DNA from: Schistosoma haematobium | Taxonomy: Eukaryota; Platyhelminthes; Trematoda; Strigeidida; Schistosomatidae | DNA length: 64,000 nt | Assembly: GCF_000699445.3 (NCBI RefSeq) | Contig: NC_067200.1 | Location: 3,694,950-3,758,949 of the forward strand | Direction of reading: 5' to 3' | Part shown: in pieces, positions 2,045-57,475 of the stretch | Layout: each line of letters opens with the position of its first letter | Numbering within the stretch: position 1 is the stretch's first letter | Notes under the pieces: model-generated | Told to the model about the DNA's origin: nothing | Seen by the model: the letters and a program-made list of their open reading frames with translations, nothing else | Databases searched by the model: none | Program-made: the position numbers and the translations under genes

Positions 2045-2390
2045 AAATATTTCACAGACTGAAATCATGAGCCAATTGAAGCTAGACCACTATGGTAAAC
2101 CTGGGAGCATTGGACGGTCGTTTTGTCCTAGTATGGGACTCCTCAACAGTGCGCATCCACAATCCCGCACCTCGTAAGACTCGAACCCAAGCTCTGTCAG
2201 TCTCGCGCCAGGCGCTTAACCAACTAGACCACTGAGCCGTCATCCAAAGGTGTTAATGTCTAACTTCAACCAATCCACGAAGTTACGCCACCGTACACCA
2301 TTGTCTTCAGTGAGCTGATATCTCAGATTTTCCATGGTGGTCTAGCTTCAGTTGACTCATGATTTCAATCTGTGAAACTTCTAAAATCTC
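2045..2390 (-). mobile_element. HH2 hammerhead SINE, foldback copy
   Basis: Minus-oriented SINE with a tRNA-like region (B box GGTTCGAGTC-like on the minus strand) and a hammerhead arm. The first ~55 bp (2049-2105) reappear inverted at 2325-2385, so the copy is bounded by inverted repeats. The ribozyme core is damaged: position C3 is U and the conserved GAAA is AAAA, so self-cleavage is not expected. Confidence 0.75.
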
Positions 2391-2489
2391 CACAAAACCC
2401 CTTCTGATCTTAAATATTTCTTAAAAAGAAGGGATAATTCCGGTTTAAATCTACCTAAATTAAATTAGGCGAACTAATTTTTAAAGGTG

Positions 2490-2765
2490 ATTCCCAGAGT
2501 TGTAAATGAGAAGCCGTAATCAATACAGTTTAATGATGGCAGGTGGCTATGAAAGATAATTGTACGATATCAAGAGATTAAGCATTCACACAAGAGATCG
2601 GATGTCTTGGATTCGAGTCTCGTGAGCGGGAATGTAGATGTGCATTACTGAAGAGTCTCATAGTAGGACGAAACGGCCATTCAGTACATCCAAGTTTTCC
2701 AAGATGGTTCAAGGTGTGGACTCATGAATTCAACTATTCAAAAGCTTCACAATTGAAATCATAAA
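2490..2765 (+). mobile_element. HH2 hammerhead SINE, plus orientation
   Basis: The tRNA-like part has B-box-like sequence GATTCGAGTCTCG near 2610. It is followed by hammerhead arm 2642..2687 and the usual tail ending CTCATGAATTCAAC. The inverted partner arm is not seen. Confidence 0.7.
2642..2687 (+). ncRNA. Hammerhead ribozyme motif (HH2), partly degraded
   Basis: Core CUGAAGA and GAAA are both kept; position 7 is variable in hammerheads, so A is allowed. Stem II is GUCU/GGAC with one wobble. Stem I (GCAUUA with CAGUAC) has mismatches. Activity is uncertain. Confidence 0.55.
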
Positions 2766-3029
2766 AATCAAATATTACATCATCAAAGTGTAAAACATTA
2801 ATCCTAAACTAAAGTAAACACTCTCTAATTTGAAGATTACAGTGGTAAAGTAGTCATTTGTAAAATGATTTGAAAAGAGATTAATTATCGAATTAGTGAA
2901 TAACAGAAAATCAAAGTGTTAACCATTTACAACAACCAAAAGAAAATGCTACCTATATGAATATACTACAACAGTATTCAACAATCATAAATAATATCAG
3001 AAAAGACCTTTTGTGGATATTATAGCAAT

Positions 3030-3520
3030 TTTAATACTTAAGATCATGAGTTAATTGAAACTAGATAACCATGGAAAATCTACAAGCACTGGATGGCTGT
3101 TTCATCCTACTGTGGGACTCTTAAGCAGTGCGCATGAAAGATTCCACCTCGTAGGATTCGAATCCAAGACCTATCGGTCATGCATATGAACAGTTAACCT
3201 CTAGATCACTGAGCTGACCGGTGTCCAACGGTGTTAGTGTCTTATTTCAACAAATCCATGAAATTATTCGACACGTCCACTATAGTCTTCAAGGACTTAC
3301 TATCTCACAACAGACTCGGTTGAACTATAATGGTCACTGCATCTCACTAGAACTTCGGAAAATACCTCATAAAGCCGGTCACTAGTAATCATATACTGAT
3401 TATTATTAGATGCGCACTGTTGACCAGTCCAACAATAGAAAAAAACCGCCATCTAGAGCTTCCAGGTTTTTCATGATGGACTACCTTCAATTCACTCATG
3501 ATCTTAACTATAAGATCATA
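3030..3520 (-). mobile_element. HH2 hammerhead SINE, foldback copy
   Basis: Long copy with arms at about 3036-3110 and, inverted, 3440-3515. The tRNA-like segment lies between, with minus-strand B-box-like GGATTCGAATCC complement near 3150. The left arm core has G5 changed to U and the right arm lacks the core, so both ribozymes should be inactive. Confidence 0.75.
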
Positions 3521-3880
3521 AAAAGGTTTGTACAGAATAAACTAAATATTACAAGCTATGGGTTAGTTTACTAAATATCAACAATTAGATTTGTATAAAC
3601 ATAGAAACATAAATAGATATCAATTCAAGAAGGATACACTACTGTTGCTATACACTACGAACAAACAAAATTACGAAATGAAAAATAAACGCTACTATAA
3701 AATAAAAGAAAAACATAACAGTTAACATAAGAAGAAATAAATCACATAAATAAACAAAGAAAGCAGTGTGATAATACTATAAGATGCAAACTGAAATAAG
3801 AAAGATTAGGTTCGGAAATAAAAAAAACGAATCAACACAAAAACATAAAGATTCGATGTGAAAATGAAACAAAGTGAAAC
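3521..3880. other. AT-rich presumed intron or downstream flank of the mucin gene
   Basis: No repeat or exon is recognised. It lies directly downstream (minus strand) of the giant exon's splice donor. Later exons of that gene were not identified here. Confidence 0.4.
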
Positions 3881-3882
3881 AA

Positions 3883-3889
3883 ACTTACC
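3883..3889 (-). promoter_or_regulatory. Splice donor of the mucin exon
   Basis: On the minus strand the sequence reads CCTG then GTAAGTTTGT, a consensus donor, with 3889 as the last exonic base. Without splicing the frame would run on to a stop at 3806 and add a short hydrophobic tail. Confidence 0.75.
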
Positions 3890-16384: not shown

Positions 16385-16885
16385 TAACAGAACCACCACC
16401 GATAACCTGGAAGCAGTGGAAGACCGTTTTGTCCTAACAACGGGATCCTCAATACTACGAGTCCATGATCCTACTCGGGAGATTGAACCCATGTCGCGCT
16501 CGAACGCTTAAACTATAGATCACTGAGCCGTTATTCAACGGCAATAATGTTGTACTTTTACCAACCGACGAAATTTCGGCTACGTCCACTAATGCCTTCA
16601 GAGAGTCATCACCTGACAATAGACACGGTTGAACTACACTGATCACGGCTTCTCACTAGAACTCCAGGAAATACCTTTTGATGCCAATCACTAGTGAGCA
16701 TATGATGATTATTATTAGGAATAAGTTGTTATAGAGATTGTACTTATTTAATAGTTGTTTGCTCACTGCTGAGGAGTGCCATATCAGGATGAAACGGCCA
16801 TCTAGTGCTTTCAGGTCTTCTCTGATGGTTTAGCTTTATTCGGTTCATGAATTCAACTATTATATCATTAAAATCATCACATAAA
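16385..16885 (-). mobile_element. HH2 hammerhead SINE, foldback copy inside presumed intron
   Basis: Left arm at about 16395-16465, minus-oriented tRNA-like segment, long tail with CTAGTGAGCATATGATG near 16690, and an inverted right arm at 16760-16860. The left ribozyme core is broken (UUGAGGAU, AAAA); the right arm (16763..16808) keeps its core. Confidence 0.75.
16763..16808 (+). ncRNA. Hammerhead ribozyme motif (HH2), core kept
   Basis: CUGAGGA and GAAA are intact and stem I (UCACUG/UAGUGC) is mostly paired. Stem II is weak, with a G-U closing pair and an internal G-G mismatch. Probably poorly active. Confidence 0.55.
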
Positions 16886-17039
16886 ACCCTCTTCTTAAAA
16901 AAAATTAGTGTTTGTTACATTTCAATGATTGAATGTTAAGTAAATTCAACTTTCCTCTCGTCAATCTGATTTAAGATGTTAAAAGGGAATTATTTATATA
17001 ATTAAACATCAAATTATCAAAAAATCAATAATCAAATGG

Positions 17040-18350: not shown

Positions 18351-18529
18351 ACATAAGTATATTTTAACACCAAAAACCAACAACAATCACAATAATAATA
18401 AGGGTAGGGAAATATCGAACTCATCTAATAAATATTAGACTATCTCTACTGGTCTGCTTAAGCAAACAACCAATTGTTATCTAATGACAAATTGTTTCAA
18501 AGATTATTTTTAATAATTTCATCACGTGA

Positions 18530-18715
18530 GATCAATTGAGTCACTTGAAGCTAGACCACTATGGAAAACCCGGAACCACTGGATGACCGTTTCACCCTAG
18601 TATGTGACTCCTCAGCAGTGTGCATCCACGATCCCGCACCTCGTTGGTTAAGCGCCTGACGCGAGACTGATAGGTCATGGGTTCGAATCTCGCGGGGTGC
18701 GGGATTGTGGATGAT
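18530..18715 (-). mobile_element. HH2 hammerhead SINE, folded-back fragment
   Basis: A minus-oriented ribozyme arm (18530-18650) is joined to a plus-oriented tRNA-like segment (18651-18715, B-box-like GGGTTCGAATCTC). The junction makes a ~22-bp hairpin: CATCCACGATCCCGCACC pairs with GGTGCGGGATTGTGGATG. Confidence 0.7.
18576..18621 (-). ncRNA. Hammerhead ribozyme motif (HH2), core kept
   Basis: On the minus strand the core CUGAGGA and GAAA are intact, the cleavage triplet is AUC, and stem I (ACACUG/CAGUGG) is nearly complete. Stem II has two wobble pairs and an A-G mismatch. It lies in the presumed intron of the mucin gene in the same sense as that gene. Confidence 0.55.
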
Positions 18716-18719: not shown

Positions 18720-19080
18720 TGTAGTTAATAATTAAAGTTAAGAATGTTTGTTTTGTTTTACCATGAACTAATATCAGCTAAAATCACAAAATGTTCTATC
18801 ATCAAATGAATAAATGAATTTAGCGCCACAATTCAAGATCTATTATCCTGAAGCCTAATTAGTTCGCTTTACCATTGTTTATATCATTATAGAGAGGTTA
18901 TAAATACGTTTAATTAGAATTTAGTCTATCAATATTATTGTAGATTATCAAACATTCATGAGAAGAATATAATTTAAGTCAATGAATAAGAAATCCAAAT
19001 GACAGAATATAAAATTAGGTAAAAGAAAAAGGAATACCACATCAGTTGATAATTATTAGTAATATAGTATAGTTTCATTG
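18720..19080. other. AT-rich sequence, nothing recognised
   Basis: No gene, repeat or structure was identified in this presumed intronic segment. Confidence 0.4.
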
Positions 19081-19084
19081 AAAT

Positions 19085-19520
19085 ATATTTTTAATAGTTG
19101 AATTCATGAGTCATTTGAAGCTAGATCATCAAAGAAAACCTGGATGTACTGGACAACCCTTTTCGTTCTAGTATGATACTCCTGGTTAGCTGGCTCTGCG
19201 GGATTCGGATCTAGGACCTATCGGTCACGCACGTGAGCTCTTAACCACTAGATCACTGAACTGGCCAGTATCCAACGGTGTTATTGTCTAACTTCAACTA
19301 ATCCACGAAATTGATCAACACATCCACCATTGTCTTCAATGAGTTACTATATCATAATAAACCCGGTTGAACTTCACTGGTTGTTACATCTCACTAAAAC
19401 TCCAGGAAATACCTCATGAATCCAGTAGGGGCCTCCTCAATGGAAGTGCACAATCACGATCTCTCCTTAACAGATTCAATTGACTCATGATCTCAATTAT
19501 TAAACTTACTCTAATATTCA
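19085..19520 (-). mobile_element. HH2 hammerhead SINE
   Basis: Minus-oriented copy with tRNA-like region (complement of ACTAGATCACTGAACTGGCC near 19245) and long tail. A short inverted arm remains at its right end (ATTCAATTGACTCATGATCT). The ribozyme core is lost near 19170. Confidence 0.7.
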
Positions 19521-19568
19521 TTAAAACCCCTTCTGAAATTAATTTCAATGGAATTAATTAATGAATAA

Positions 19569-20109: not shown

Positions 20110-20490
20110 TTTTGGCGCCAACGGTGTTAATGTCTAACTTCAACCAATCCACGAAGTTGCGCTACCGTACACCATTGTCTTCAGTGAGTTCCTATCTCAC
20201 AACAGACCTGGTTGAACTCCACTGGTAACGACTTCTCACTAGAACTCCAGAAGTGTCTCCTGAAGTCAGTCACTAGTGAGCAGGTGATTATTATTATTAT
20301 TATTATCAGAATGTGTTTTGTGGAGATTTTTAGAAATTTTCACAGATTGAACTCATGAGTCAGTTGAAGCTAGACCACCATTGAAAACCTGGAAGCACTG
20401 GACGGCCGTTTCGTCCTAGTATGGGACTCCTCAGCAGTGCGCATCCACGACCCCGCACCACCCGGGGCTCGAACCCAGGACCTATGTTAT
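20110..20490 (-). mobile_element. HH2 hammerhead SINE, tandem-like copy
   Basis: The tail half (20110-20290) is followed, across an ATT triplet run at 20290-20315, by the start of a second unit (20340-20490) in the same orientation. The second unit carries the ribozyme arm and the start of the tRNA-like part. This head-to-tail order suggests a tandem or dimeric source molecule. Confidence 0.75.
20395..20440 (-). ncRNA. Hammerhead ribozyme (HH2), consensus-perfect
   Basis: Minus strand, 46 nt. Stem I GCACUG/CAGUGC has 6 pairs. The core is CUGAGGA, and stem II GUCC/GGAC (4 pairs) closes a CAUACUA loop. GAAA is followed by the very short stem III AC/GU (loop GGCC), then cleavage triplet GUC. 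Every invariant core position of a type I hammerhead is present, with position 7 = G. Self-cleavage between the bases complementary to 20401 and 20400 is predicted; the short stem III may require a dimer, as reported for schistosome satellite hammerheads. Confidence 0.85.
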
Positions 20491-20544
20491 TGTCAATAAT
20501 GACATCATCATTAGTTACCTTTCTCAAAATACTGACATTTTAAA

Positions 20545-27589: not shown

Positions 27590-27955
27590 GTAATATATGA
27601 AATAAAGACTCATTAGCTAAGTGGATAATGTGATGGAGTTTGAGGCGAACGTTACTTGGTTCGAGTCCTGGAGCGAACATCAACTCAGATTCGAGTACAT
27701 CCAGTTGATGAGTCCCAAATAAGACGAAATGGCACGCATCCTGGTTCCCACTACTAACCACCATTTATCTCTGTTTCTAATGCTTGTGAATTAAAGCAAT
27801 ATCTAAGTAATCTGCACTGGATGCACATTTGTCAATAGGATAATGATCTATCGCAGTCCTAAACACTAATGGTAAGATTCAAACAACCAATACATCACAC
27901 ATTAAGATTTTTAAACAATAGAGTTTTGTTCTCTGAACTAAACGTTGACGTTTAC
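27590..27955 (+). mobile_element. Sm-alpha-type (HH1) hammerhead SINE
   Basis: tRNA-like promoter with A box TAGCTAAGTGG (27614-27624) and B box GGTTCGAGTCC (27658-27668), then hammerhead 27699..27746, ACCACCATTTATC, and the 3' arm (27780-27930) with AGTCCTAAACACTAATGG. The layout matches the known schistosome Sm-alpha element. Confidence 0.8.
27699..27746 (+). ncRNA. Hammerhead ribozyme (Sm-alpha type) with C3 mutated
   Basis: Stem I AUCCAG/CUGGUU, core UUGAUGA (C3 to U), stem II GUCC/AGAC with one mismatch, GAAA, stem III AUG/CAU with loop GCACG, cleavage triplet AUC. Loss of C3, which pairs with G8, should abolish or strongly reduce cleavage. Confidence 0.75.
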
Positions 27956-28169: not shown

Positions 28170-28860
28170 GAACAAGAACACGAGTGGGTAAGATCTATGG
28201 ATCATACAGTAAATACTTCATATGTAAAATATCAATCAATTGTCTAGAATTTGATTGTTTCTTTTACAAATATCAGTCCATCGTCCCAGATTTCATTGTC
28301 GCTGCATTTTCATACAAACGTCCCCGTTCTTTCTTTCACTATTTTACACTGAAATATATTCTATTGCTGACTATCATTATATATACTACTCATATAGATA
28401 TAAGTAGCTCACACCATATTCATATCATATAATGAAATAATGAATTAAAACACAGTGTATATACACACATGATTCCAGCAGTGTAATTTATATACTTGTC
28501 TATTGATTACATAATTCATGTCAAAAATAGAAGAAAAAGAAGTATTCATTGAAAAAACATTAGCCAGGTCAAACATCTTCTTTAAATCAAAGTAGCCGAT
28601 ACTATGTTAGTTACTTAGATCACCATGACTATATTATTACATAATAGATTACATAATGAATGAATGAAAGTATTAACTTGTCTTCTATTATGTAATCGAA
28701 TTAATCATAATGTATTTAGTGATATGAATGATCTTTGTATTTGAGATGGTGTACTTTATCTTCATTCTTTCTTTTCTTTTCTTTTTTTGATTAAATTCAA
28801 GTTACATGTGATAAATCATGAAAATAACTAAGAATTTCTTTCTTTTTTTTCATCAGAGAA
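28170..28860. other. AT-rich sequence with one short palindrome
   Basis: ATATATACTACTCATATAG and ATATAAGTAGCTCACACC near 28378-28410 form a version of the short palindrome. Otherwise nothing is recognised. Confidence 0.4.
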
Positions 28861-28864
28861 GGGG

Positions 28865-29240
28865 TTTTGTGAAGAGTTTAGCAATTTTATAGTTGGATTC
28901 ATTAGCCAATCGAAGCTAGACTATCATAGATGACCTGGAAGCAGTAAACGGTTGTTTCATTCTAGTACGGAAATCCTCAGTAATACGCATCCAATTTCGT
29001 GGATTGGTTGAAATAAGACATTAACACCGTTGGATTCCGACCAGCTCAGTGGTGTAGAGATTAAGCGTTCACGAGCGAGACTAATACGTTCTTGGGTTCA
29101 AATCTTGTGGGGCAGGATCGTTGGTGTGCACTACTGAGGAGTCTCATACAAAGACGAAACAATAGTCCAGTGCTTTCAGGTTTTCTATGATGATCTATCT
29201 TCAATTGACTTATGAATTCAACTATCAAATTTGTAGAAGT
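28865..29240 (+). mobile_element. HH2 hammerhead SINE, foldback copy
   Basis: The left arm (28895-28995) is inverted relative to the rest. Then comes a plus-oriented unit: ATTAACACCGTTGG lead, tRNA-like region with A-box-like CAGCTCAGTGG and B-box-like GGGTTCAAATC, hammerhead 29128..29173, and tail to GAATTCAACTATC. Confidence 0.8.
29128..29173 (+). ncRNA. Hammerhead ribozyme (HH2), near intact
   Basis: Stem I GCACUA/CAGUGC pairs at five of six positions. Core CUGAGGA is intact, stem II GUCU/AGAC is fully paired, and GAAA is followed by the short stem III AC/GU and cleavage triplet GUC. One of the best-preserved motifs here. Confidence 0.75.
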
Positions 29241-30809: not shown

Positions 30810-31130
30810 TGTTGATTTTATTGAGACTATGAAACGATCTCAGTTAGACAGCCATTGAGAACCTGGAAGACCTGGACAGGTGTTTAGTACCAGTATTGGA
30901 ATACTTAGCAGATCACATCCACTAAATTGCCACCTGAGATTATTTTAAAGGCTTTTGGTCCTTTTAGTGGATTTAGACTTGGACATCTCAGTTCTGTGTT
31001 CTTCTGGTTAAGAGTTTGTGTGCGCAACTGAAAGCTTTAGGTCTGATCCCCATTTAAGCCGTCCTGGATGAGTACCGCTTGAGATTTTTATACCAGGATG
31101 GAACGGATTTAGAAACGGTATTTGTTTTAT
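30810..31130. mobile_element. Decayed HH2 SINE
   Basis: A minus arm (CCATTGAGAACCTGGAAG, near 30850) and a plus tRNA-like remnant with TCTTCTGGTTAAGAG (31007-31021). The ribozyme parts are unrecognisable. Confidence 0.4.
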
Positions 31131-36169: not shown

Positions 36170-36520
36170 TGATTGAGATCACAAAGCGATTGATGTTAGA
36201 CCACCATTGAAAACCTGGAAGCACTGGACGGCCGTTTCGCCCTATTGTGGGATTCCTCAGCAGTGCGTAACCACGATCACACTCGCGGGATTCGAACCCA
36301 GGGCCTTCAGTCTCACGCGTGAACGCTTAACCTACTAGACCACTGAGCCGGCATCCAATGGTGTTAATGTCTAACCTCAACCAATCCACGAAATCCCACA
36401 ACCATCTTCCACTGTACTGAGGTAGATACCTGTCTCTACCCAACATGGATTACCTCCACTGATCACGGCTTCTCACTAGAACTCCGAGAATTCCCTCACG
36501 AAGCTAGTCACTAGTGAGCA
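36170..36520 (-). mobile_element. HH2 hammerhead SINE
   Basis: Minus-oriented, nearly complete: arm with ribozyme (36221..36266), tRNA-like complement GGGATTCGAACCCAGG (36289-36304), ACCACTGAGCCGGC, then the tail to CACTAGTGAGCACATG. No inverted second arm. Confidence 0.8.
36221..36266 (-). ncRNA. Hammerhead ribozyme motif (HH2), stem II closing pair lost
   Basis: Stem I GCACUG/CAGUGC is perfect and core CUGAGGA and GAAA are present, with cleavage triplet GUC. Position 10.1 is A opposite C11.1, which should impair folding. Confidence 0.65.
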
Positions 36521-36784
36521 CATGTTAATTACTGGTATAAGGGTTGTGAAGATTATTTGATTGTCCCTGTTGGTGTCCTTGTTCACTATAGTACAGTAAA
36601 CAGTATAACAAAGAAAACAATCTATATCTATCATTGAGAAATGCTTAACAATGACACACATAGTCTAAAACACTTTGATCTAATTGATTGAATAATAAGA
36701 TGAGATACATAATCTGGATTATACTTGTCTTTATAAAACATCTATTCTGAATAACATTTTTATAAAGATATTATTATATTAATT

Positions 36785-37469: not shown

Positions 37470-37855
37470 AATTGAGATCATGAACTGATTGATGTTAGAC
37501 CACCACAATTGAAAACCTGGAAGCATTGGACGGCCGTTTCGCCTTATTGTGGGACTCCTCAGCAGTGAGCATCCACGATCCCACTCGCGGGATTCGAACC
37601 CAGGGCTTCAGTCTCGCGCGCGAACGCTTAACCTACTAGACCACTGAGCCGGCATTCAATGATGTTAATGTCTAACCACAACAAATCCACGAAGTTGTGC
37701 GACCATCTTCCATTGTACTGAAGTAGACACCTGTTTCTACCCGACATGGATTAACTCCACTGGTCACAATAGGACGAAATGGCCGTCCAGTGCTTCCAGG
37801 TTTTCAATGGTGATCTAACATTAATTGGTTCATGATCTCAATTAAAAGCTTAACA
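37470..37855 (-). mobile_element. HH2 hammerhead SINE, clean foldback copy
   Basis: The first ~80 bp (37471-37550) and last ~80 bp (37767-37847) are near-perfect inverted repeats starting TTGAGATCATGAAC and ending GTTCATGATCTCAA. The tRNA-like complement (CGGGATTCGAACCC) and tail lie between. It is one of the clearest examples of this architecture. Confidence 0.85.
37523..37568 (-). ncRNA. Hammerhead ribozyme motif (HH2), core kept
   Basis: CUGAGGA and GAAA are intact and the cleavage triplet is GUC. Stem I has one C-A mismatch; stem II keeps the closing G-C with one wobble and one mismatch. Confidence 0.6.
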
Positions 37856-37859
37856 ATCC

Positions 37860-38300
37860 CCACAACCACTAAACTGATAATCCATTCTTTTAATTGACAT
37901 ATTTTAATTCTGTTATTCAATAACACAAGTTCAATTGATGATTATATACGAGAATAGTCAGAATGTATATTTCAACAGTAATTATTTGATAATAATGAGA
38001 GAGAAATGATTCAACTGGAATCAGATATAAGATTCATTATTATATCAATCAATATTACTTATATCTATTATGTAAGTAATAGTGAAATTTAAGATATAAG
38101 TTTTATTTTGTTTCTATATCTGGTACACTTCAGTTAACTGTATACACAAATCAAATGTAATGTTCAAACTGAGAGTTGAACTTAGTAAGCTTTAGAGTTC
38201 AATTACATACTAACCTATTTAACAATTATGATAATATTAATAAGAATTTTATAGTTGAATAATTTCTATTGTTATATGCATAGGCTAAGAAGATTGTTAA
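37860..38300. other. AT-rich sequence, nothing recognised
   Basis: No supported feature. Confidence 0.35.
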
Positions 38301-38309
38301 GATAAGATG

Positions 38310-38610
38310 ATAATTGGAGGTAGTCAACGACAAACGATGAAACTAAGTTTCGTACTACTTAGCACTCGTCGACAAGGTGTACCTATGGTAACGTCTCTAA
38401 CTGTGAATCTGGGTGACACAAGATTAAATCCATCAGGGAGCATCAGTTCCCGCAAGATTATAGGTACATCTTGCTGACGACTACCAAGTAGCACGAAATC
38501 TACGTCCAACGTTTCATGTTGACTATCTCCAATCATCATCTTATCTCGACTCAATGTTGAGTCACTTAGACAAGTGGCCTCATTGCAATTTGGTTGATTG
38601 GATTCGTGCT
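38310..38610 (+). mobile_element. HH3 hammerhead SINE, foldback copy
   Basis: The left arm (38315-38390) is the reverse complement of the right arm (38462-38530). Between them is the tRNA-like core with GGTAACGTCTCTAACTGTGA and ACAAGATTAAATCC. The left core is broken (UCGACGA). The right core CUGACGA and GAAA are present, but the stem II closing pair is C-C. Confidence 0.75.
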
Positions 38611-38859
38611 GCACTAAGAAGGAACTGACATACATGACATGGATCACCACTCAATTGTAAATAAGAGGATTGTCTAGATACAGACTTCTGTCATACTTTT
38701 TTAGTGAAATTTCGATTATTGAAATTTGAGAAGAAAAAAATTGAAATTTATTGATACTGTGTTTTTCATTTTCATGAATAAAAACTAGGTAGCAAATCAT
38801 TGAGATCACTAACTAATAATGGATTATCACTATGGGGTTGTGGAGATTATTGAGTTTAT

Positions 38860-39725: not shown

Positions 39726-40289
39726 ATATTATATGTTTTTATTCTTGTTTGGATCATTGCAAGTAATTTCCATTTGGCGAACTATACTATAGAGAACAAT
39801 CACCTTTAAGCGTCTATTTATAATTATTATCATTATGTATACGACACTTTGAAAATAATAATTTGAATCAAACAGAATAATCAGAACATTTGTGGCTAAA
39901 CTAAAAAAATGGGATCAGTTTGTCCAAGAGTTCATCGACTGTTTCTACTTTGTCGATAGATTGATGAAAACGATTGAATCATGTTAGAAAGCTGAGATTG
40001 AATTGTTTACAGTCGTAGTTAACGATTTGCTTATCTAATTTGTAAAGATTTTTTACAAACACGAAATAGTAAAATTCTAGAACATCACCTTAAACGATGT
40101 TGTAAATGAGAGGAATTTAGTAATTGATCAACGTAATTTACCGTTTAATCACAATATCACCATTGGATGAGTGAGATATTATAGATGTAGTTCTCCTGTA
40201 TTGAATTAATTTCGAACTTTCTTCTGAGTATTCGTAGCATTAGTATTTCATGAATTATGTCACCTCTAAACTGTAAACATTGATACAAT
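39726..40289. other. AT-rich sequence, nothing recognised
   Basis: No supported feature. Confidence 0.35.
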
Positions 40290-40575
40290 GAATTCACTTG
40301 GTATTGTTTACTTGTATCTTCTCATTGTTGTTTAGGGCTGCAATTAATCAGTCTCTTGTAGGTAGATGTGCATTCTGTGCGGACTACCTCGATATTGCCT
40401 TAATTCACAAGCTTTATAAGCGAAGATGGAAGTGAACGGTACTGGGTTTGAGTCTTGGAGTGAACATCAATTGTGAGATGCAGGTACATCCGTCTGACGA
40501 GTCCCAAACAGGCCGAAGTTGCACGCATCCTAGATTCCACTGCTAGCCACCATCCACCGAGATGAACCTGATTTG
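40290..40575 (+). mobile_element. Sm-alpha-type (HH1) hammerhead SINE
   Basis: An inverted arm (TTACTTGTATCTTCTCATTG to CACAAGCTTTATAAGCG) precedes the tRNA-like B-box region (GGGTTTGAGTCTTGG). The hammerhead 40488..40535 and CCACTGCTAGCCACCATCC follow. This is a fairly complete Sm-alpha-type copy. Confidence 0.8.
40488..40535 (+). ncRNA. Hammerhead ribozyme (Sm-alpha type), degraded
   Basis: Core CUGACGA is intact and stem II is GUCC/GGCC with one mismatch. The following GAAA is GAAG and stem I has three mismatches. Cleavage triplet AUC. Probably inactive. Confidence 0.65.
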
Positions 40576-40579: not shown

Positions 40580-41155
40580 ACTGGTGCGCTCACTTAAACT
40601 TATTACTAATACTCACCGATTTAAATATAGCAGGCTAACAGGTTACTACAACCGATAATGTAGTTGATCATTGTGATATTTATAATCTATTGTAAGAGTT
40701 TGTACTATATCTCTGTTGATTATCACTATCGGGTACTATTGAAAATTTAAGTACGGTTTAAGTATAGACAGTGTCAAGATATTCTTTCAAGATGGCTTAT
40801 ATCCTAGGTCTGAATAAAATATTTAACATTGATTCCAAAGAATATCTGAGCTCAAATACCGAACATGAAGATCAGTTAAGTTTGTTGACAGTATTCACCA
40901 GTAATTGACCTCAGCTAGATTATCATTGAGAACTACAGACGATGACCTAGTGTAAAACTCGACAATGTCCATTCATGATCTGTAGGATTTGTGTCCAATC
41001 TATAGCGCAGTGACTTTGTACACGCTATTATAATCCTATATTTAAATGAAGCAGATATACATTGTGCAATAGTTTTTAATAGTATTCCAAATTTGTTCAA
41101 TTCAAGAGGAGTACTACTTTAAACAATCAAATAAATTGTCAGAATGAGGGTTTGT
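40580..41155. other. AT-rich sequence with a decayed HH2 remnant
   Basis: A decayed minus arm may lie at 40905-41000 (CATTGAGAACTACAG and GTAGGATTTGTGTCC). Otherwise nothing is seen. Confidence 0.35.
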
Positions 41156-41159
41156 GGAA

Positions 41160-41505
41160 GTTGTAGTAATTTAATGGTTAAATTTATGAGTCGATCTAAG
41201 CTAGACCACTATTGAAAATCTGGAAGTACTAGACAGCCGTTTCGTGGTAGTATGGGACTTCTCAGCAGTGTGCATTCATGACCCTGTATGCGGGATTCGA
41301 ACCCGGAACCTTTGATCTCTCACGTAAACTATAAACCTCTAGACATCCATCAGTGTTAATGTCTAACTTCACTTGATACATACAGTCTGAGATGGACAAC
41401 TGACCAACACCCGACGCGGACTAGACAAAACGACCGTCAAGTGCTTCCAGGTTTTCAATGGTGGCCTAGCATAGATCAACTCGTGAATTCAACTGTGCGA
41501 ACTTA
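41160..41505 (-). mobile_element. HH2 hammerhead SINE, foldback copy
   Basis: Arms at 41170-41250 and, inverted, 41432-41497. tRNA-like complement GCGGGATTCGAACCCGG lies at 41290-41306. The left ribozyme core has G8 to A and the right arm lacks the 5' core. Confidence 0.75.
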
Positions 41506-42504: not shown

Positions 42505-42815
42505 ACAACTATCATTAAATCTAGGCCACACTGGAAAACCTGTAAGCATTGAACGGCTGTTTCGTTCCGGTATAGGACTCCTCAGCAGTGCGCATCCACG
42601 ACCCTATTCGAGAGACTGGAACCCAAGACCTATTGGTTTCGCGCTTGAAAGTTTAGCCTCTAGACCATTGAGCTGGCCGGCATTCAACGGTGTTAATGTC
42701 TAACCAATGCATCAAATTGCGCCATCGTCTATCATATCTTCAGTGAGTTATTATCTCCAATGCTTCCAGATTTTTCATGATGGTCTAGCTCATGAATTCA
42801 ACTATTAGATTATCA
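42505..42815 (-). mobile_element. HH2 hammerhead SINE, foldback copy
   Basis: Minus arm with ribozyme 42546..42591, tRNA-like complement and tail, then a short inverted right arm (GCTTCCAGATTTTTCATGAT, 42762-42781). Confidence 0.75.
42546..42591 (-). ncRNA. Hammerhead ribozyme motif (HH2), largely intact
   Basis: CUGAGGA and GAAA intact; stem I GCACUG/CAAUGC with one mismatch; stem II closing G-C kept with one mismatch; stem III AC/GU; cleavage triplet GUU. Confidence 0.65.
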
Positions 42816-43735: not shown

Positions 43736-43789
43736 TATGTATACTTTTACATATAATTCTTAGATTAAACTATAAAATTATATCAGAAG

Positions 43790-44040
43790 GGGTTTTGTGG
43801 AGATTGTAGCAATTTCAACAGTTGCGATCATGAGTCAGTTGAAGCTAGACCATCATGGAAGACCTGGAAGCACTCGACGGCTGTTTTATCTTATTGTGAG
43901 ACTCTTCCGTGGTAGTGTGCATCCACGATCCCGACTCAAGAGTAATAGGACGAAACGGTCGTTCAGTGCTTCCAGGTTTTCCATCGTGATCTAGCTTTAA
44001 TTGACTCATGATCTCAACTTTGAAATTAAAAATTACAACA
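43790..44040. mobile_element. HH2 element reduced to its two inverted arms
   Basis: Arm at 43795-43905 followed after ~35 bp by its reverse complement at 43945-44025. The tRNA-like centre has been lost, leaving a near-palindrome. Neither side keeps a complete ribozyme core. Confidence 0.7.
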
Positions 44041-46709: not shown

Positions 46710-47145
46710 TGATTGAAATCATGAATTGATTAATGTTAGACCATCATTGAAAACCTGAAAGCACTAGATGGACGTTTCATCCTATTTTGGGACTCCTCAA
46801 TGGTGAACATTTACGCTCTCACTCACTAGTGACTAGCTTTGTGAGATAAATCTCGGAGTTCTAGTGAGAAGCTAATTCATGTTGAATAGAGACAGGTATC
46901 TACTTCAGTAAAATGGAAGATGATCGCGAAATTTTTTTGGATTGGTTGAGGTTGCTGGCCAACTCAGTGGTCTAATGGTTAATCGATCTCGCGCGAGACT
47001 GATAAGTCCTAGGTCAGAATCTCTCTACCGAGGTCGTGGATGCGCATTGTTGAAGAGTCTCACAATAAGACGAAACAATCGTCCAGTACTTCTAGATTTT
47101 TCAATGATAGTTCAATATCAATTGATTCATGATCTGAATTATTGA
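46710..47145 (+). mobile_element. HH2 hammerhead SINE, foldback copy
   Basis: Inverted left arm (46715-46800), then a plus-oriented complete unit: tail-type lead (CTCACTAGTGACTAGC, CTAGTGAGAAGC), tRNA-like region with CAACTCAGTGGTCTAATGG, and ribozyme arm at 47027-47100. Both cores have C3 to U. Confidence 0.75.
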
Positions 47146-47765
47146 ATGTAATCATTTCACTATAATAAATTGATTACTAAACTTCATAAATCAGTATTCT
47201 CATTTCAGATCATACTTTTGATCCTTAATACATCATGAATCTAGATGATGTAATTAATTATTGAATTCTATTCAAGCTTCAAAAGGTGTTCATCATCAAC
47301 TTATACAGATATATATATGAATCTATTAAGATAGATTAATCTCTATTTAATAGTTTAGTATTTTTATGGTTGATTTATATTAGATCTTTTATTATATGAA
47401 TCATATGACTGATTGTAAGCCTAATGTATAGTAATCAATTTAATCACTAATTGACAACTATGAAATGTAAGGCATTAGTATATATGGGTCATTATGGAAA
47501 GTCAGTACATAGATACTATATACAAATGATCATATGTACTGTAATCACTAAGCAAGATGTTACTACTGAGATTTTAAGCGATTTATATATATATATATAT
47601 ATATATGCTATGCTCGGATGATAACATGTGTATCAATACTGAAGTATGACTACACTGAAGTATCTTTTACTTAAATATGTTTTCAGCGTTTCATTATATA
47701 TTATCTTTAAGTTTCATAGTTCATATGATGAAATATTATCATTATTTATTAAACTAAATGATAAG
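47146..47765. other. AT-rich sequence with (TA)n at 47583-47607
   Basis: A 12-unit TA run is the only simple feature. Confidence 0.5.
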
Positions 47766-47948
47766 ATTCGAACTCAGGTCACAATTGATTGATCACTGGG
47801 TGGTGATCAATGTCATGCTTGTCTAGTCCTTATTAGTGCAGATCGAATGCTATCGATCATGTTGCAATGTGGCCACCAGTCTAGGTGACTCAACACTGCG
47901 GGCACTATGTATTGAGATTAGATGGTGGTTGGAGGTAGTCAACAGGAA

Positions 47949-47993
47949 ACCCTGTACCCGGGTTTCGTGCTACATGGCACTCGTCAACAAGGC
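47949..47993 (-). ncRNA. Hammerhead ribozyme motif (HH3), C3 mutated
   Basis: On the minus strand the core is UUGACGA (C3 to U). Stem II GUGC/GCAC and GAAA are intact, stem III ACC/GGU and cleavage triplet GUA are kept. It should be inactive despite good stems. Confidence 0.7.
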
Positions 47994-48088
47994 TCGGATA
48001 GCTCAGTGGTAACGTCTCTGACTGTGAAGCTGGGTGACACGAGATCGAATCGGCCAGGGAGCACCAGTTCCCTCAAGATTACAGGTAC

Positions 48089-48133
48089 ACCTTGCTGACG
48101 AGTGCCAAGTAGCATGAAACCCGGGTACAGGGT
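48089..48133 (+). ncRNA. Hammerhead ribozyme (HH3), core intact
   Basis: Stem I ACCUUG/CAGGGU pairs with one wobble. Core CUGACGA is intact. Stem II GUGC/GCAU has a G-U closing pair. GAAA is followed by palindromic stem III ACC/GGU and cleavage triplet GUA. It is the best preserved HH3 ribozyme in the window. Confidence 0.7.
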
Positions 48134-48159
48134 TTCCTGTTGACTACCTCCAACCACCA

Positions 48160-48505
48160 TCTAATTCGAACTCAGGACCTATCGGTCCAACGTGCGAATG
48201 GTTGATCATTCCGCTGGCCGGTATCCAATGGTGTTAATGTCTAACTTCAACTTTTCCACGAAATTGAGCGACACATCCATTATTGTCTTCAGTGAGTTAC
48301 TATCTCACAAAAGACCTGGTTGAACTCCACTGGTCACGGCATCTCACTAGAACTCCAGGAAATATTTCTTGAAGCTAATTACTCTTGAGTCGGGATCATG
48401 GATGCACACTGCCACGGAAGAGATGAAACATCCGTCCAGTGCTTCCAGGTTTTCCATAGTGGTCTAGCTTCAATTGACTCATGATCTCAATTATTAAAAT
48501 TAACC
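48160..48505 (-). mobile_element. HH2 hammerhead SINE joined to HH3 copy
   Basis: Starts at the tRNA-like complement (AATTCGAACTCAGGACC) and has the full tail to GAAGCTAATTACTCTTG, then an inverted arm at 48400-48490 whose ribozyme has lost CUGANGA. Confidence 0.75.
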
Positions 48506-48634
48506 ATAATATCCACAAAACTCCTGATACTAAATGGTAAGAGTTTTACGACGGTGAACCCTGGTTCAGGTCATCTCGTAGCTCTTTGGGGATCATGAGG
48601 TACAGACTTATAAACTTTAGTGGTCTATAGAGAA

Positions 48635-49328: not shown

Positions 49329-49900
49329 AGTACTGCATTTTCTTAAACTTTTATGTAATGGAAATCAAGATTTTCAAATCTTGTGGAAGGAACAAAACGT
49401 TTAGGCTACGAGTTCAAAATTGAATGATTTTCTAAATCCTGAAGGGTCGCATACTAGAACGAAACAGTATCTACTTCTTCCATGTTTCTAATGATGGTCT
49501 AGCTAAGATCAGTTGCTGATTAGTTTCGTAAAAACGTTATCTCTATTAGAGTTTAAGTGATCAATCTACAGTATTGAAAATTGACACAACTTAGAAGTAG
49601 ATATCAATACACCTTAATGTCTTGGTCTAAATGATATCGTCTTAAATTCAATATGTGGCTCGGCCATAGAGTGAATTGTAGTGAATAATAGTCTTAAACA
49701 ATGACAAAACAACTGTCTCTTGTTCTAGAAGATTTCTCAAGTGGATACCAATTCAAGATGAAACCTATCTTCGAATAAAACTGATCTCTACAAATCATCT
49801 AACGAAATGATCTCATTTCAGTCATTTCTTATAATAAATTTCAATTGAGAAATAAACAGACTGACTATGAAAAATGGAATAAACAAACAGATATTAATTT
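49329..49900. other. AT-rich sequence with a decayed HH2 arm
   Basis: GAACGAAACAGTATC and CTAATGATGGTCTAGC at 49460-49505 look like an HH2 arm without a core. Confidence 0.35.
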
Positions 49901-49904
49901 CAAT

Positions 49905-50265
49905 GGCTAAGATCATGAGTCAGTTGAAGTTAGACCACCATGGAAAACCTGGAAGCACTGGACGGCCGTTTCGTCCTATTGTGGGATTCCTCAACAACGC
50001 GAATCCATGACCTCGCCCCCTGCGAGATCCGAACCCAAAACCTACTGGTCCCGCGCGCGAACACTTTACCACAAGACCACTGGGCCGGTATCCAACGGTG
50101 TTAATATCTAACTTCAACTAATCCACGAAGTTGAGCGACACATTCACCACTTCTGAGGAGTCCCGCAATAGGACGAAACGATCTTCCAGTGCTTTCAGGT
50201 TTCCCATGGTGGTCTAGCTTCAATTGACTCATGATCTTAAACATTGAAATCACCATAATATCCAC
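49905..50265 (-). mobile_element. HH2 hammerhead SINE, foldback copy
   Basis: Left arm 49912-49990 (core C3 to U), tRNA-like complement GAGATCCGAACCC, then the inverted right arm (50140-50240), which has an intact core. Confidence 0.8.
50147..50192 (+). ncRNA. Hammerhead ribozyme (HH2), near intact
   Basis: CUGAGGA and GAAA intact, stem II GUCC/GGAC fully paired, cleavage triplet UUC. Stem I CCACUU/CAGUGC pairs at four internal positions. Confidence 0.6.
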
Positions 50266-50299
50266 TAAACCCATCTGATATTAAACAGATATTAATAAA

Positions 50300-52425: not shown

Positions 52426-52614
52426 GTCAGTTTATTACATCATATTTTGCTATTTCATTCTCTCTCTCCCTTTTTTCCCATTTTAATTGCATCACTTATA
52501 TCGAAGTGATATCCTTATTGCTTGATTTTTTTCACTGATTGATCTCAGCTCATGTTATTCTTTATTGTTATTAAGTTATATCCAACTACTTCATTATATA
52601 AAAAATTGATTAAC

Positions 52615-52950
52615 TCCGGAAGGGGGTTTTGTAGATATCTTAGTAATTTAATGGGTGAGTTCATGAGTTGATTAAAGCTAGACCACAACGGAAAACCTGG
52701 AAGCACTGGACAGCCGTTTTGTCCTAGTATGAGACTCCTCAACTGTGTGCGCCCATGATTCCACCTGCGGTATTCCCGTTTGCGTGCGAGACCAATAGGT
52801 CTTGGGTTCGAATCTCGCGGGGCGAGATTGTGGATGTACACTTCTGAGGAGTCTCATACTAAGACGAAATGTCCGTCCACTGCTTCCAGGTTTTCCATAG
52901 TGGTCTAGCTTTAATTGACTAATGAACTCAACTAATAAATTAATTATTTG
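52615..52950. mobile_element. HH2 hammerhead SINE, foldback copy
   Basis: Left minus arm (52665-52750), then a plus-oriented tRNA-like segment with GGGTTCGAATCTCG at 52804-52817 and the right arm with ribozyme 52838..52883. The left core has C3 to U and AAAA. Confidence 0.8.
52838..52883 (+). ncRNA. Hammerhead ribozyme motif (HH2), core kept
   Basis: CUGAGGA and GAAA intact; stem II GUCU/AGAC fully paired; cleavage triplet GUC. Stem I is poor and stem III has one wobble. Confidence 0.55.
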
Positions 52951-53165: not shown

Positions 53166-53199
53166 TAAATATTAAATATCAATAATGATAACCTAGGTC

Positions 53200-53545
53200 A
53201 ATACTAATTCCGCCTGGAGCCCCTCTGAGGCTACTGCCGGTCTCAAGCCCAGACAAATCAGAACGGTTGGGCATAGGGTTAGCAACCCCATCCCGTAGAA
53301 AACTAACTCAGTAAAAGAAATGCTAAACAGAAAATATAATTCAAACCATTTAAACTTTGCCCTGGGAGTTAGAAGATCTTTATTTAGAAGAGTTATGATG
53401 CCTCATGGTGGAAGTCAAGTTCCTTCGGAAGTCACGAGGCTGATTACCCTTCTGAAAACCAGAGTAACTATCTAGTTAGGTACATAGAATGCTTGTACGA
53501 TGTGGGAGACCGAGAGAATCATCTAAATTGCTACAGAAAATGAAA
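53200..53545 (+). mobile_element. RTE-like 5' end
   Basis: Leader GGCTACTGCCGGTCTCAAGC and CCCATCCCGTAGAAAAC, then ~200 bp to a segment corresponding to the N-terminal endonuclease start (ETEN..KLLQKMKRYNLKLLGI in mixed frames). Truncated soon after; no 3' part adjoins it. Confidence 0.65.
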
Positions 53546-54660: not shown

Positions 54661-54800
54661 GCCGAATATATAAGTATGTACTTGATAAATAATTCGTCTT
54701 TAATGGATAATATTTGTGATTGTAGTGTTGAGTAGTGCTAACAAGTGTAGAAAAACTTCAACAAAACATAGCTTTTCATCAACTTTCTACAATAACTGTT
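54661..54800. other. AT-rich sequence, nothing recognised
   Basis: No supported feature. Confidence 0.3.
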
Positions 54801-54804
54801 TATT

Positions 54805-55105
54805 TACAATCGATTGATTGCTGGTTAGTGATCGATGTCAAGTGTGTCAGGTCCTCGATAGTGCATACCGAACTCTACTGACCAGGTCACAATACAGCCG
54901 TTCGTCTAGGTGACTAGACATCGCGTGATGAGATGAGATAATGGTTGAAGGTAGTCGACAGGAAATCTTGGACTTAGGTTTCGTGCTATTTAGCAGTCTT
55001 CAGAAAGCTGTACCTGTGATCTTGTCGGAATTGGTGCTCGCTGACTGATTCATTCATATGTCACTTTGCTTCATTGTCAAAAACGTTACGACTGAGCTAT
55101 CTGGG
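54805..55105 (-). mobile_element. HH3 hammerhead SINE, minus orientation
   Basis: Full-length minus copy with GGTAGTCGACAGGAAATC, ribozyme arm at 54965-55012 and the tRNA-like complement ending ACTGAGCTATCTGGGCC. The core CUGAAGA and GAAA are present, but the stem II closing pair is C-C. Confidence 0.7.
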
Positions 55106-55139
55106 CCGTAAGTAACGTCCTATAGGATTAGGATGTATT

Positions 55140-55275
55140 TGCAATCGAATAATCATTGACTAGTGATCAATGTCAAGTGTGTCAGGTCCTCTTAAGGTCA
55201 AATTCAATAGATAAGTGCCGAATAGCACGTAACGTAGGTCCAGGGTTTCATATCAACTATCTCTAACCACCTGTT
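55140..55275. mobile_element. HH3 tandem remnant
   Basis: Repeats the first ~60 bp of the preceding unit (GTGATCAATGTCAAGTGTGTC) and then a plus-oriented arm (AGTGCCGAATAGCAC, CAGGGTTTCATATCAAC). The ribozyme 5' core is missing. Confidence 0.55.
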
Positions 55276-55534
55276 TTATTCTATTGTTGTTACCTAAGTA
55301 ATAATATTGATGATTATTATCTAATTCAATAGTAAATAAATTTTCTTTAGTTGAAAGGGTCTTGTGGAAATTGATTAAATTTGTACTATGAGTGGAGCAA
55401 TTATCATCAAGTTGAAATTGTACCATTCAATTGTATCATTCAAGTAAATTCTAATAGTTAACTATTCACTTTAAGACTTAAAGATCTTATATTATGATAA
55501 AACAGTTGTTGAATTCTAATCTAAAAAGAGTTTT
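55276..55534. other. AT-rich sequence, nothing recognised
   Basis: No supported feature. Confidence 0.3.
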
Positions 55535-55795
55535 TGTGGGTACTATAATAGATTGGTTGAAGTTAGACATTAATACTGTTGGATACCGGCCTAGTGATTA
55601 AGCGATCTCTCACTAGACTGATAGGTCCTGGTTTCGAATCTCACGAAGCGGGATAATGGATGAGTACTGTTGAGGAGTCCCATACTAGGATGAAACGGCT
55701 GTCTAGTACTTCCAGATTTTCCATGGTGGTCTAGATTTAATTGACACATGAATTCAACAATTAAATGGCTATAATGTCTACAAAAACTCTTCTCT
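55535..55795 (+). mobile_element. HH2 hammerhead SINE, plus orientation
   Basis: Leads with GGTTGAAGTTAGACATTAA, then the tRNA-like part with CCTGGTTTCGAATCTC and the arm with ribozyme at about 55655-55700. C3 is U, so inactive. Confidence 0.75.
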
Positions 55796-55809
55796 GGTTA
55801 TAATCATTA

Positions 55810-56185
55810 TATGCTCACTAATGACGGTCTCCTAGGGGTATTTCCCGGAGTTCTAGTGAAAGGCCGTGACCAGTGAAGTTCAACCTGGTCAGTTGTGAGA
55901 TAGTAACTCACTGATGATAATGGTGGACAGTGGCACAACTTCGTGGATTAGTCGAAATTAGACATTAACATATATGGATGCCAAGTTGATAGTCTAAAGG
56001 TGAAGCACCCGCACGCGTAACCAATAGATCCTGATTTCAAATCTCACGAGGCCAGATCGTTTGATACGTGCTGCTGATGAGTCCTACAATAGGATAAAAC
56101 AGCCATTCACTGCTTCCAGATTTTTCATAATGATCTAGCTTAAATGGACTCATGAATTCAACTATTGAAATTATTGAATTCTTAC
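55810..56185 (+). mobile_element. HH2 hammerhead SINE, full plus copy
   Basis: Complete from CACTAATGACGGTCTCC through the tRNA-like region to a ribozyme at about 56072-56118. CUGAUGA is kept, but GAAA is AAAA. Ends ACTCATGAATTCAAC. Confidence 0.75.
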
Positions 56186-56754
56186 AAGTTTTCAATGATA
56201 GCCCCTCACCCCCACCCCAACAACAATAAAAAAAACAAATCCTTCTTTTTAAATTTTACTGAAAAATCACTTACCCTTCCTCCCCCCTCAAAGAAAAAAT
56301 AAAGAAAATTATGTAAGTTTTCCTTTCGTTAAATAGAATAAACAACCGATTAGTGTTAATGATTATTCTCACATAAATGTAATTAATTGTTATATAATAA
56401 ATGAATGAATGTAGTTGAAAGCAAATATCTATCTATGTATCTATCCATATATATATATATATATAGGCTTATTATAACAAGAATTGAATTGGTTAGTAGT
56501 ATATCACTATCTATTAACTGGTAATCATTTCTATTATAATCATTACATAGATGACCTTCAATAAATAAGATATATCTTCATATTATTTGAAGTATAGTTT
56601 ATATTATTAACACTTGTATAGAGAGAGAGGTACATTAATTACATACATTTATATATATATATAAAGACATATACATTCAGAGTAATCATTTCTGTATAGA
56701 TTTATAAGTAATATAAGTATTTCAATAGAAAATAATTATATAAAACAAAATATA
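56186..56754. repeat. Simple-sequence-rich stretch, (TA)n tracts
   Basis: C-rich and A-rich tracts at 56205-56300 and TA runs at 56447-56464 and 56650-56663. No gene. Confidence 0.6.
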
Positions 56755-56935
56755 TTCAATATCCAGCTGATGAGTCCTAAATAGGACGAAATGCACATGA
56801 AACTAGATTCCATTGTTAAACATTATTCAACTTTGCTTAAAGTGGTTTTTATGTTATTAGAGCAATATCGAGGTAATATGCACAGTATGCAAATTGTGAG
56901 GACAGTTCACGGGTGAATTAGAGAAAGCTTTAAGA
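56755..56935 (+). mobile_element. Sm-alpha-type (HH1) arm with ribozyme
   Basis: A hammerhead-like segment 56761..56808 followed by the 3' arm (GAGCAATATCGAGGTAATA). The tRNA-like promoter is missing. Confidence 0.65.
56761..56808 (+). ncRNA. Hammerhead ribozyme (Sm-alpha type), 3' side broken
   Basis: AUCCAG, core CUGAUGA, perfect stem II GUCC/GGAC and GAAA are all present. The sequence before CUAGAU is not an NUH triplet, so the cleavage site is lost. Confidence 0.65.
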
Positions 56936-57074
56936 AGTTCAGAAATATTGTATTTAAACATTCGAGAATCCTTACATGAAGCTTTCCATATTGGACAAAT
57001 GCTAATAATTCACTGTATACAGATTGGAAGATTATAATTATGATTATGTTTTTGCTAAAAACTATAAATATTTG

Positions 57075-57475
57075 ACAAGCATGACATTGATCACCACCCA
57101 GTGGTCAATCAATTGTGATTACATCTCAGTCCTACAGGAGGTTAGTCACGGCTCGGTTAGCTCAGTGGTAACGTCTCTGACTGTGAAGCTGGGTGACATG
57201 AGATCGAATCGGCCAGGGAGCACCAGTTTCCTCAAGATTACAGGTACACCTTGCTGACGAGTGTCAAGTAGCACAAAACCCGGGTCCAGGGTTTCCTGTT
57301 GACTACCTCTAACCACCATCTAAATCTCAATACATAGTGCCCGCAGTGTCGAGTCACCTAGACTGGTGGCCACATTGCAACATGATCGATAGCATTCGAT
57401 CTGCACTAATAAGGACTAGAAAAGCATGACATTGATCACCACCCAGTGATCAATCAATTGTGATTTGACAATTTT
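57075..57475 (+). mobile_element. HH3 hammerhead SINE with direct repeat of its start
   Basis: tRNA-like core with TTAGCTCAGTGG (57157-57168) and GAGATCGAATCGG, ribozyme 57248..57292, CTGTTGACTACCTC and CACCTAGACTGGTGGCC. A ~42-bp stretch at 57080 (AGCATGACATTGATCACC) recurs almost exactly at 57426, so about 1.1 units of a ~346-bp tandem are present. Confidence 0.8.
57248..57292 (+). ncRNA. Hammerhead ribozyme (HH3), G12 mutated
   Basis: Stem I ACCUUG/CAGGGU, core CUGACGA, stem II GUGU/GCAC, stem III ACC/GGU and triplet GUC are present. The conserved GAAA is AAAA (G12 to A), which should abolish activity. Confidence 0.7.

Follow-up and report, generated by a model that had tools for sequence, protein, structure and literature searches.

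Three subfamilies of hammerhead-bearing SINEs and their mirror-pair insertions in a 64-kb window of Schistosoma haematobium

Introduction

SINE-like (short interspersed nuclear element) repeats carrying a type I hammerhead ribozyme have been described in schistosomes as SMalpha of S. mansoni (Ferbeyre 1998) and Sjalpha of S. japonicum (Laha 2000), as cited in consulted passages of PMC8490949 and PMC2770079. Several hammerhead-bearing repeat families per schistosome are also reported in parts of PMC2770079 and PMC4350168, and passages of PMC8490949 present four of S. mansoni, W25.2, W26.2, W27.2 and W36.2, mainly as satellites of the W chromosome; autosomal copies exist, and three of five W25.2/W36.2 candidates cleaved in vitro. 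The present analysis concerns elements of this kind, termed HH1, HH2 and HH3, in one stretch of 64,000 nucleotides of S. haematobium (contig NC_067200.1, positions 3,694,950 to 3,758,949; hereafter the window), from which all family and locus counts are taken. Like SMalpha and Sjalpha they are SINE-like repeats with a type I hammerhead, and they resemble the four W families in that several families occur in one schistosome and in their very short stem III.

HH1 may correspond to SMalpha, which would fit its match to the Rfam hammerhead model. As far as published descriptions go, HH2 and HH3 are set apart from SMalpha and Sjalpha by their stems, loops, heads and tails, and by a consensus stem III that is a loop-less palindrome. 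The metazoan non-LTR (long terminal repeat) retrozymes, in the passages of PMC7229834 consulted, carry type I hammerheads in tandem units of 150–450 bp, are non-LTR retroelements and act as dimers in some animals. The window likewise holds tandem units with a type I hammerhead, within that length range and below 50% G+C (the HH2 consensus unit has 412 bp and 48% G+C); unlike those retrozymes, its copies are mostly single or paired with an inverted second arm, and carry a head that resembles an RNA polymerase III (Pol III) promoter.

The paired form, here called a mirror-pair, consists of a main copy and an inverted arm placed head-to-head. No account of it for SMalpha or Sjalpha is given in the consulted passages of PMC8490949 and PMC2770079; the former mentions inverted repeats in W elements, and the head-to-head form is not described in the passages covered. 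Partial listings of the open-licence literature, with subscription journals outside their coverage, contain no title describing mirror-pairs in schistosome hammerhead SINEs. A close parallel is the 5' inversion of human and chimpanzee L1, a long interspersed nuclear element (LINE), reported in part of PMC2912911 for 639 of 2068 insertions. Twin-primed L1 insertions and mirror-pairs have in common an inverted 5' segment, an abutting junction and a flanking duplication. Unlike in L1, the arm repeats a 3' part that is also found in the main copy (14 of the 15 HH2 arms), and the elements are SINEs, among which those moved by L1 rarely show inversions (Alu 1/5,554, SVA 4/477; PMC2912911, in part), a comparison of rates with 64 kb on one side and young insertions from whole genomes on the other.

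With a probability of about 0.65, the elements of the window are read here as one superfamily of SINEs with three subfamilies, whose mirror-pairs arise by LINE-driven insertion in which both strands of the target act as primers. Animal repeats commonly carry hammerheads. If mirror-pair insertion is the rule for these SINEs, it would leave a countable trace in the genome, whose rate may follow ribozyme dimerisation or the partner LINE only; it would also be a source of long SINE hairpin RNA in a parasite under study for its small-RNA pathways.

Three subfamilies of one superfamily

Searching the window with the Rfam model of the type I hammerhead (RF00163) gave 13 matches at the gathering threshold and ten more when the threshold was relaxed to E ≤1; most of these 23 can be sorted by eye into HH1, HH2 and HH3 types. 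Best scores were 50.8 bits for HH2, 48.0 for HH1 and 35.8 for HH3, and each family has copies above the cut-off. The locus census, based on consensus and iterated profile searches with decayed and partial units included and rows grouped by us, yielded 27 HH2 loci (25 by mapping the consensus and two from profiles, 23308 and 60334), nine HH1 loci and seven HH3 loci, many of them decayed or partial. The word CTGANGAG occurs 24 times against 5.0 expected, a number reached in none of 100 shuffles, and the HH2 core gave 0 matches among bacterial/archaeal genome contigs and 0 among viral contigs.

A tree was built from 52 aligned rows picked by us from the profile matches, omitting six short HH2 arms, weak hidden Markov model matches (58649, 24301, 31429 and 31700) and tail fragments (57578). 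HH1 (nine rows), HH2 (34) and HH3 (nine) are each confined to one side of a branch, with supports of 98/91, 99/97 and 98/89, respectively (ultrafast bootstrap 98–99%), and none of 500 label shuffles scored as low. The family labels derive from profile matches and so are not independent of the sequences; the tree is a test of the clusters and not of how independent the labels are. HH1 and HH3 stand together opposite HH2 (99/97), the midpoint root serving for the drawing only. Median identities of the heads are 58–76% within families and 39–46% between them, and those of the ribozymes 65–71% and 49–56%. All three families have the same unit order, namely a 5' region, a Pol III-like head, a type I hammerhead and a tail.

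The iterated HH3 profile also picks up copies of HH1 and HH2, over head and ribozyme alike. Since heads and ribozymes can be aligned throughout, the three groups are, as judged from this alignment, diverged subfamilies of a single superfamily of SMalpha/Sjalpha-kind SINEs. The sequence-only reading of this DNA had proposed three distinct families, each with its own tRNA-like head and its own hammerhead. Three clusters of common organisation were indeed recovered, the copies of the window do not collapse into one, and HH2 and HH3 score as hammerheads; the word distinct was an overstatement given the reach of the HH3 profile. A head particular to each family agrees with the identities above; these heads do not score as tRNA.

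Heads and ribozymes

Words resembling A and B boxes follow each other in the expected order within the heads. Of the two words named in the sequence-only reading, the B-box-like GGTTCGAATCC is enriched at up to two mismatches (37 in the window, 8.8 expected; none of 100 shuffles reached 37), while the A-box-like TAGCTNAGTGG at the same stringency is not above chance (45 against 45.3) and carries weight only through its position within the units. Among long rows, a B-box with at most two mismatches is present in 4/5 of HH1, 18/25 of HH2 and 0/6 of HH3, where all six rows have three or four mismatches, and an A-box with at most one mismatch in 4/5, 14/25 and 5/6, respectively, both tallies being without shuffle control. 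A tRNA origin of the heads was considered and set aside: ARAGORN detected no tRNA, and the Rfam tRNA model had no match at E ≤10 in the three units searched, one per family. Published tRNA origins are tRNA-Gln for SMalpha and tRNA-Pro for the S. japonicum pseudogenes (PMC2770079, in part).

In their consensus, HH2 and HH3 have a loop-less, palindromic stem III, and HH1 a stem III with a loop. The palindromes named beforehand hold as consensus features; most copies are without them, ACGGCCGT being present in 4 of 34 HH2 rows and ACCCGGGT in 3 of 9 HH3 rows. The cores assigned to the families proved looser than claimed, and the seventh core base fails to separate them: CTGATGA occurs in one and CTGACGA in three of nine HH1 rows; CTGAGGA in 12, CTGATGA in one and CTGAAGA in one of 34 HH2 rows; CTGACGA in three and CTGAAGA in two of nine HH3 rows.

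When six ribozymes (two per family) were folded as single molecules, the three-stem hammerhead was never the best fold. Cofolding of two molecules predicted an exact double hammerhead for HH2 20395 (-36.1 versus 2 × -13.8 kcal/mol) and HH3 48089 (-30.5 versus 2 × -9.2 kcal/mol), both with an 8-bp stem III shared between the partners. For 36221 the best dimer fold has a shifted stem II (-33.9, the strict form having -27.3), and cofolding of 39622 gave no double hammerhead. Dimeric hammerheads with an elongated or palindromic stem III are known from newt and viroid, and further repeats have been suggested to use them (PMC3088659 and PMC6155905, in part).

Mirror-pair insertions

Inverted head-to-head arms, unmentioned in the sequence-only reading, were detected by consensus mapping and short-chunk comparison; most were missed by whole-window and tiled self-comparison. 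A second, inverted arm accompanies the main copy at 15 of the 27 HH2 loci, head-to-head in 15 of 15, and no arm was found at the other 12. Fourteen arms consist of hammerhead and/or tail, parts that are also present in the main copies, and one (18508) of head only. At 12 of the 15 loci no more than 5 nt separate the two arms, which overlap by 1–3 nt at seven of these; at the remaining three they are 45–57 nt apart. As mapped, the breakpoint pairs are all different, which argues against one inherited structure.

Target-site duplications were judged against a 95% null at element ends. They exceed it at the HH2 composites 49891, 37472, 2049 and 18508 (Table 1), and it is from these flanking duplications that some composites are taken to have been inserted as one event. 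Loci without inversion also carry duplications (36170, 10 bp; 38814, 16 bp with one mismatch). The single copy 36170–36575 starts and ends near the same tail position, as if excised from a tandem or a circle. More generally, 5'-truncated copies and duplications of variable length at some loci are scars of retroposition, the duplications being above the null at a minority. Head-to-tail tandems occur at a few loci, 55551–56173, 57064–57478 and 20118–20485.

HH3 has mirror-pairs at 3 of 7 loci (38297, 47774 and 54788). That at 47774–48167 is young, with arms 96% alike over 76 bp and a perfect target-site duplication above the 95% null. Inverted tail arms are present at 5 of 9 HH1 loci, two of which (40289 and 20540–20751) have a common breakpoint, and no HH1 arm locus has an end duplication above the null.

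Of 43 hammerhead-element intervals compared in short chunks, 13 local inverted pairs were obtained (one pair, 2604/3072, linking two neighbouring loci), and of 38 other repeated segments, two (Fisher test, p = 0.004, segments treated as independent). The latter two are LINE-like repeats, 34801–35719 and 45262–45671, and are perhaps 5' inversions of LINEs themselves.

The source of the arms was compared for ten of them (seven HH2, three HH3). Seven have their own main copy as nearest or second-nearest relative; for 16760, 46829 and 55210 it is not among the two closest. In the tree, arm 46829 falls in a different HH2 subgroup from its main copy, and arm 50148 groups with 39546 (98/81) instead of its own main. 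Arms that are closer to other copies indicate that the two arms can derive from different element copies, a pattern that would fit either two separate RNAs or a pair of units within a single tandem RNA.

Two other sources of the arms were weighed. An origin of the breakpoints in ribozyme cleavage is rejected, as they do not cluster at the cut and range from position 18 of the head as far as position 24 of the tail. Snap-back of a single complementary DNA (cDNA) is disfavoured, the tail part of the arm extending beyond that of the main copy at 49891, 2049 and 37472. At 2988, 41130 and 43771 the opposite is seen.

Origin of the mirror-pairs

In the favoured model, element RNA would be initiated at the internal promoter of the head, and a LINE reverse transcriptase would copy it into DNA where the target is nicked. 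In HH2 and HH3, a stem III that is palindromic and has no loop would let the ribozyme act best as a dimer, formed by two RNAs or by two units of one, which would trim multimers to unit length. Both nicked target strands would often prime on element RNA, either two RNAs or a dimer RNA, and the two converging cDNAs would be joined at their meeting point to give a mirror-pair inside one target-site duplication.

Several findings weigh against this model. Two-strand priming is deduced from the scars of insertion alone. At nine of the 15 HH2 composites the end duplication does not reach the 95% null; at 2988 it measures 8 bp and lies at the limit, and at 30821 a duplication of 10 bp above the null lies about 10–30 bp outside the mapped ends. 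Not every mirror-pair need be an independent event, since BLAST ends place the breakpoints of 46710 and 48164 no more than 3 nt apart, and the arm of 48164 and the main copy of 43771 have a common head end and ribozyme variant. No tail of a partner LINE was found in the window, by self-comparison only. As for the ribozyme, both core motifs, CUGANGA and GAAA, are intact in 17 of 52 copies and one or both are missing from 35, so that most copies are fossils. Pairing in 28 HH2 ribozymes is weakly raised (79.8% of cells against 78.2% in shuffles), their covariation score of 0.236 (0.208 shuffled) was reached by 24 of 500 shuffles, and pairs changed on both sides number 8 against 7.3. The strict double hammerhead is not the best fold in two of the four ribozymes cofolded. 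A palindromic hammerhead gives a reason for paired RNAs, yet it is not necessary, and need not cause mirror-pairs, because HH1 with its looped stem III and the two LINE-like repeats have inverted arms as well.

Concerning novelty, the odds are about even that HH2 and HH3 have already been published, as W25.2, W26.2, W27.2 or Sjalpha, and that only the mirror-pairs are new. According to the passages of PMC8490949 covered, the four S. mansoni hammerhead repeat families have a minimal stem III and three of the four have relatives in S. rodhaini, S. haematobium and S. japonicum; tRNA-Pro-like pseudogenes of S. japonicum, and more than 5,000 hammerhead matches in that species, are given in part of PMC2770079. 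Against this, the comparison is one of descriptions, not of sequences. As several schistosome hammerhead repeat families are published, HH2 and HH3 belong to a known kind of element and could be among the known families. The earlier suggestion that no description of such families existed is weakened by W25.2, W26.2, W27.2 and W36.2 (PMC8490949, in part), and novelty is confined to the mirror-pair form of insertion.

A possible, though doubtful, alternative to two RNAs is twin priming with a single head-to-tail dimer RNA as template: the first strand would prime on the last tail and the second on the tail of the upstream unit, so that one RNA suffices. Head-to-tail tandems do exist (55621/56024 and 57074/57419), and by our reading the main copy begins downstream of the arm start in dimer coordinates at 13 of 15 HH2 composites, which a dimer RNA would thereby reconcile with twin priming of the L1 type; the same 13 of 15 is expected anyway if the main copy rarely exceeds one unit. 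Furthermore, the second half of the tail at 16392 and part of the head at 18508 are present in both arm and main copy, which is impossible from one dimer, and a dimer RNA with two hammerheads would tend to cut itself.

It seems unlikely, if conceivable, that the palindromic hammerhead is a dimer-linkage device, by which RNAs would pair through stem III, travel together in one retrotransposition particle and each be reverse-transcribed from one nicked strand, with mirror-pair rates far above those of Alu and SVA; hairpins from read-through could then feed small RNAs. Predicted read-through RNA of mirror-pairs forms a hairpin with 72–92 long-range base pairs in which the ribozyme is buried (four of four folded). 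Nine of the 16 small-RNA clusters at hammerhead-like loci of S. haematobium are predicted to be hairpin-derived (PMC5993326, in part), and mirror-pair hairpins may be linked to these small RNAs.

Improbable, too, is a built-in foldback element, a master with inverted ends that spreads as such while later deletions shift the breakpoints. A near-complete ribozyme arm beside a near-complete 5' region at HH2 2988 and 16392, the breakpoint common to two HH1 loci and the mention of inverted repeats within W elements (PMC8490949, in part) would suit such a master; duplication lengths varying from 9 to 21 bp, the differing HH2 breakpoints, the possible origin of arm and main copy from different subgroups (46829, 50148) and the 12 HH2 loci at which no arm was found speak against it. 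Chance insertion of opposite copies beside or into each other, imaginable in a window with 43 hammerhead-element intervals, is very improbable given 15 of 15 head-to-head pairs where 1 in 4 is expected of random neighbours (9e-10), arms abutting within 5 nt at 12 of 15 HH2 loci, and duplications at the outer ends of the composites.

Locations of the elements

Table 1. Selected hammerhead elements, in window positions (TSD, target-site duplication).
Family	Form	Positions	Strand	Details
HH1	Copy with head, hammerhead and tail	27592..27912	+	Hammerhead 27699-27746; Rfam 37.0 bits
HH1	Hammerhead and tail, headless	56761..56895	+	Hammerhead 56761-56808; both core motifs intact; 48.0 bits
HH1	Inverted tail arm on 5' side	40289..40556	+	Breakpoint common with 20540-20751
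HH2	Tandem form, partial head	20118..20485	-	Consensus-perfect hammerhead 20395-20440; 50.3 bits; tail continues into 5' region of next unit
HH2	Head-to-tail tandem	55551..56173	+	Two hammerheads
HH2	Single copy, about one unit	36170..36575	-	10-bp TSD
HH2	Mirror-pair	49891..50296	-	Arm 50148-50296, main 49891-50149; 14-bp TSD
HH2	Mirror-pair	37472..37902	-	Arm 37765-37902, main 37472-37767; 21-bp duplication, 1 mismatch
HH2	Mirror-pair	2049..2410	-	Arm from 2324, main 2049-2325; 9-bp duplication
HH2	Mirror-pair, full 5' region	2988..3511	-	Arm 3409-3511, main 2988-3408
HH2	Mirror-pair	16392..16895	-	Arm 16760-16895, main 16392-16757
HH2	Mirror-pair	18508..18713	-	Arm 18645-18713, head only; 9-bp duplication
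HH2	Mirror-pair	19040..19544	-	45 nt between arms
HH2	Mirror-pair	28857..29238	+	Arm 28857-28993, main 28992-29238
HH2	Mirror-pair, main shortened	30821..31106	+	57 nt between arms
HH2	Mirror-pair	41130..41493	-	48 nt between arms
HH2	Mirror-pair	42514..42813	-	
HH2	Mirror-pair	43771..44028	-	
HH2	Mirror-pair	46710..47146	+	
HH2	Mirror-pair	48164..48540	-	Main ends at HH3 element
HH2	Mirror-pair	52605..52942	+	
HH3	Mirror-pair, recent	47774..48167	+	Arm 47774-47992, main 47988-48167; hammerhead 48089-48133; 13-bp duplication
HH3	Copy	57064..57478	+	Hammerhead 57248-57292; 5' end repeats 3' end (57064-57120/57409-57465); 9-bp end match, at 95% null limit
HH3	Mirror-pair	54788..55271	-	Hammerhead 54965-55009
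HH3	Mirror-pair	38297..38662	+	

Other features of the window

On the reverse strand, a 429-bp unit is repeated in tandem about 27 times at 3806–15853 with 99% matches; in these repeats one frame is open for 4015 amino acids and is predicted to encode a threonine-rich, mucin-like repeat protein of 143 residues per repeat. Two Rfam matches to mir-3492, both below threshold (25199–25276, reverse; 32883–32960, forward), lie within copies of one LINE-like repeat, the former antisense in a reverse-transcriptase-like frame, 24920–25396 (Pfam RVT_1, E 7e-4, below cut-off); the mir-3492 "microRNA" family may be a piece of a retrotransposon. Type-P1 twister matches below gathering, at 31206–31275 (forward), 24628–24697 (reverse) and 53201–53282 (forward), overlap repeated segments. 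Together with the type I hammerheads, these mir-3492 and twister matches suit a schistosome genome. From 61310 to the window end at 64000 there are about 900 copies of AGT, with a strong skew of G over C.

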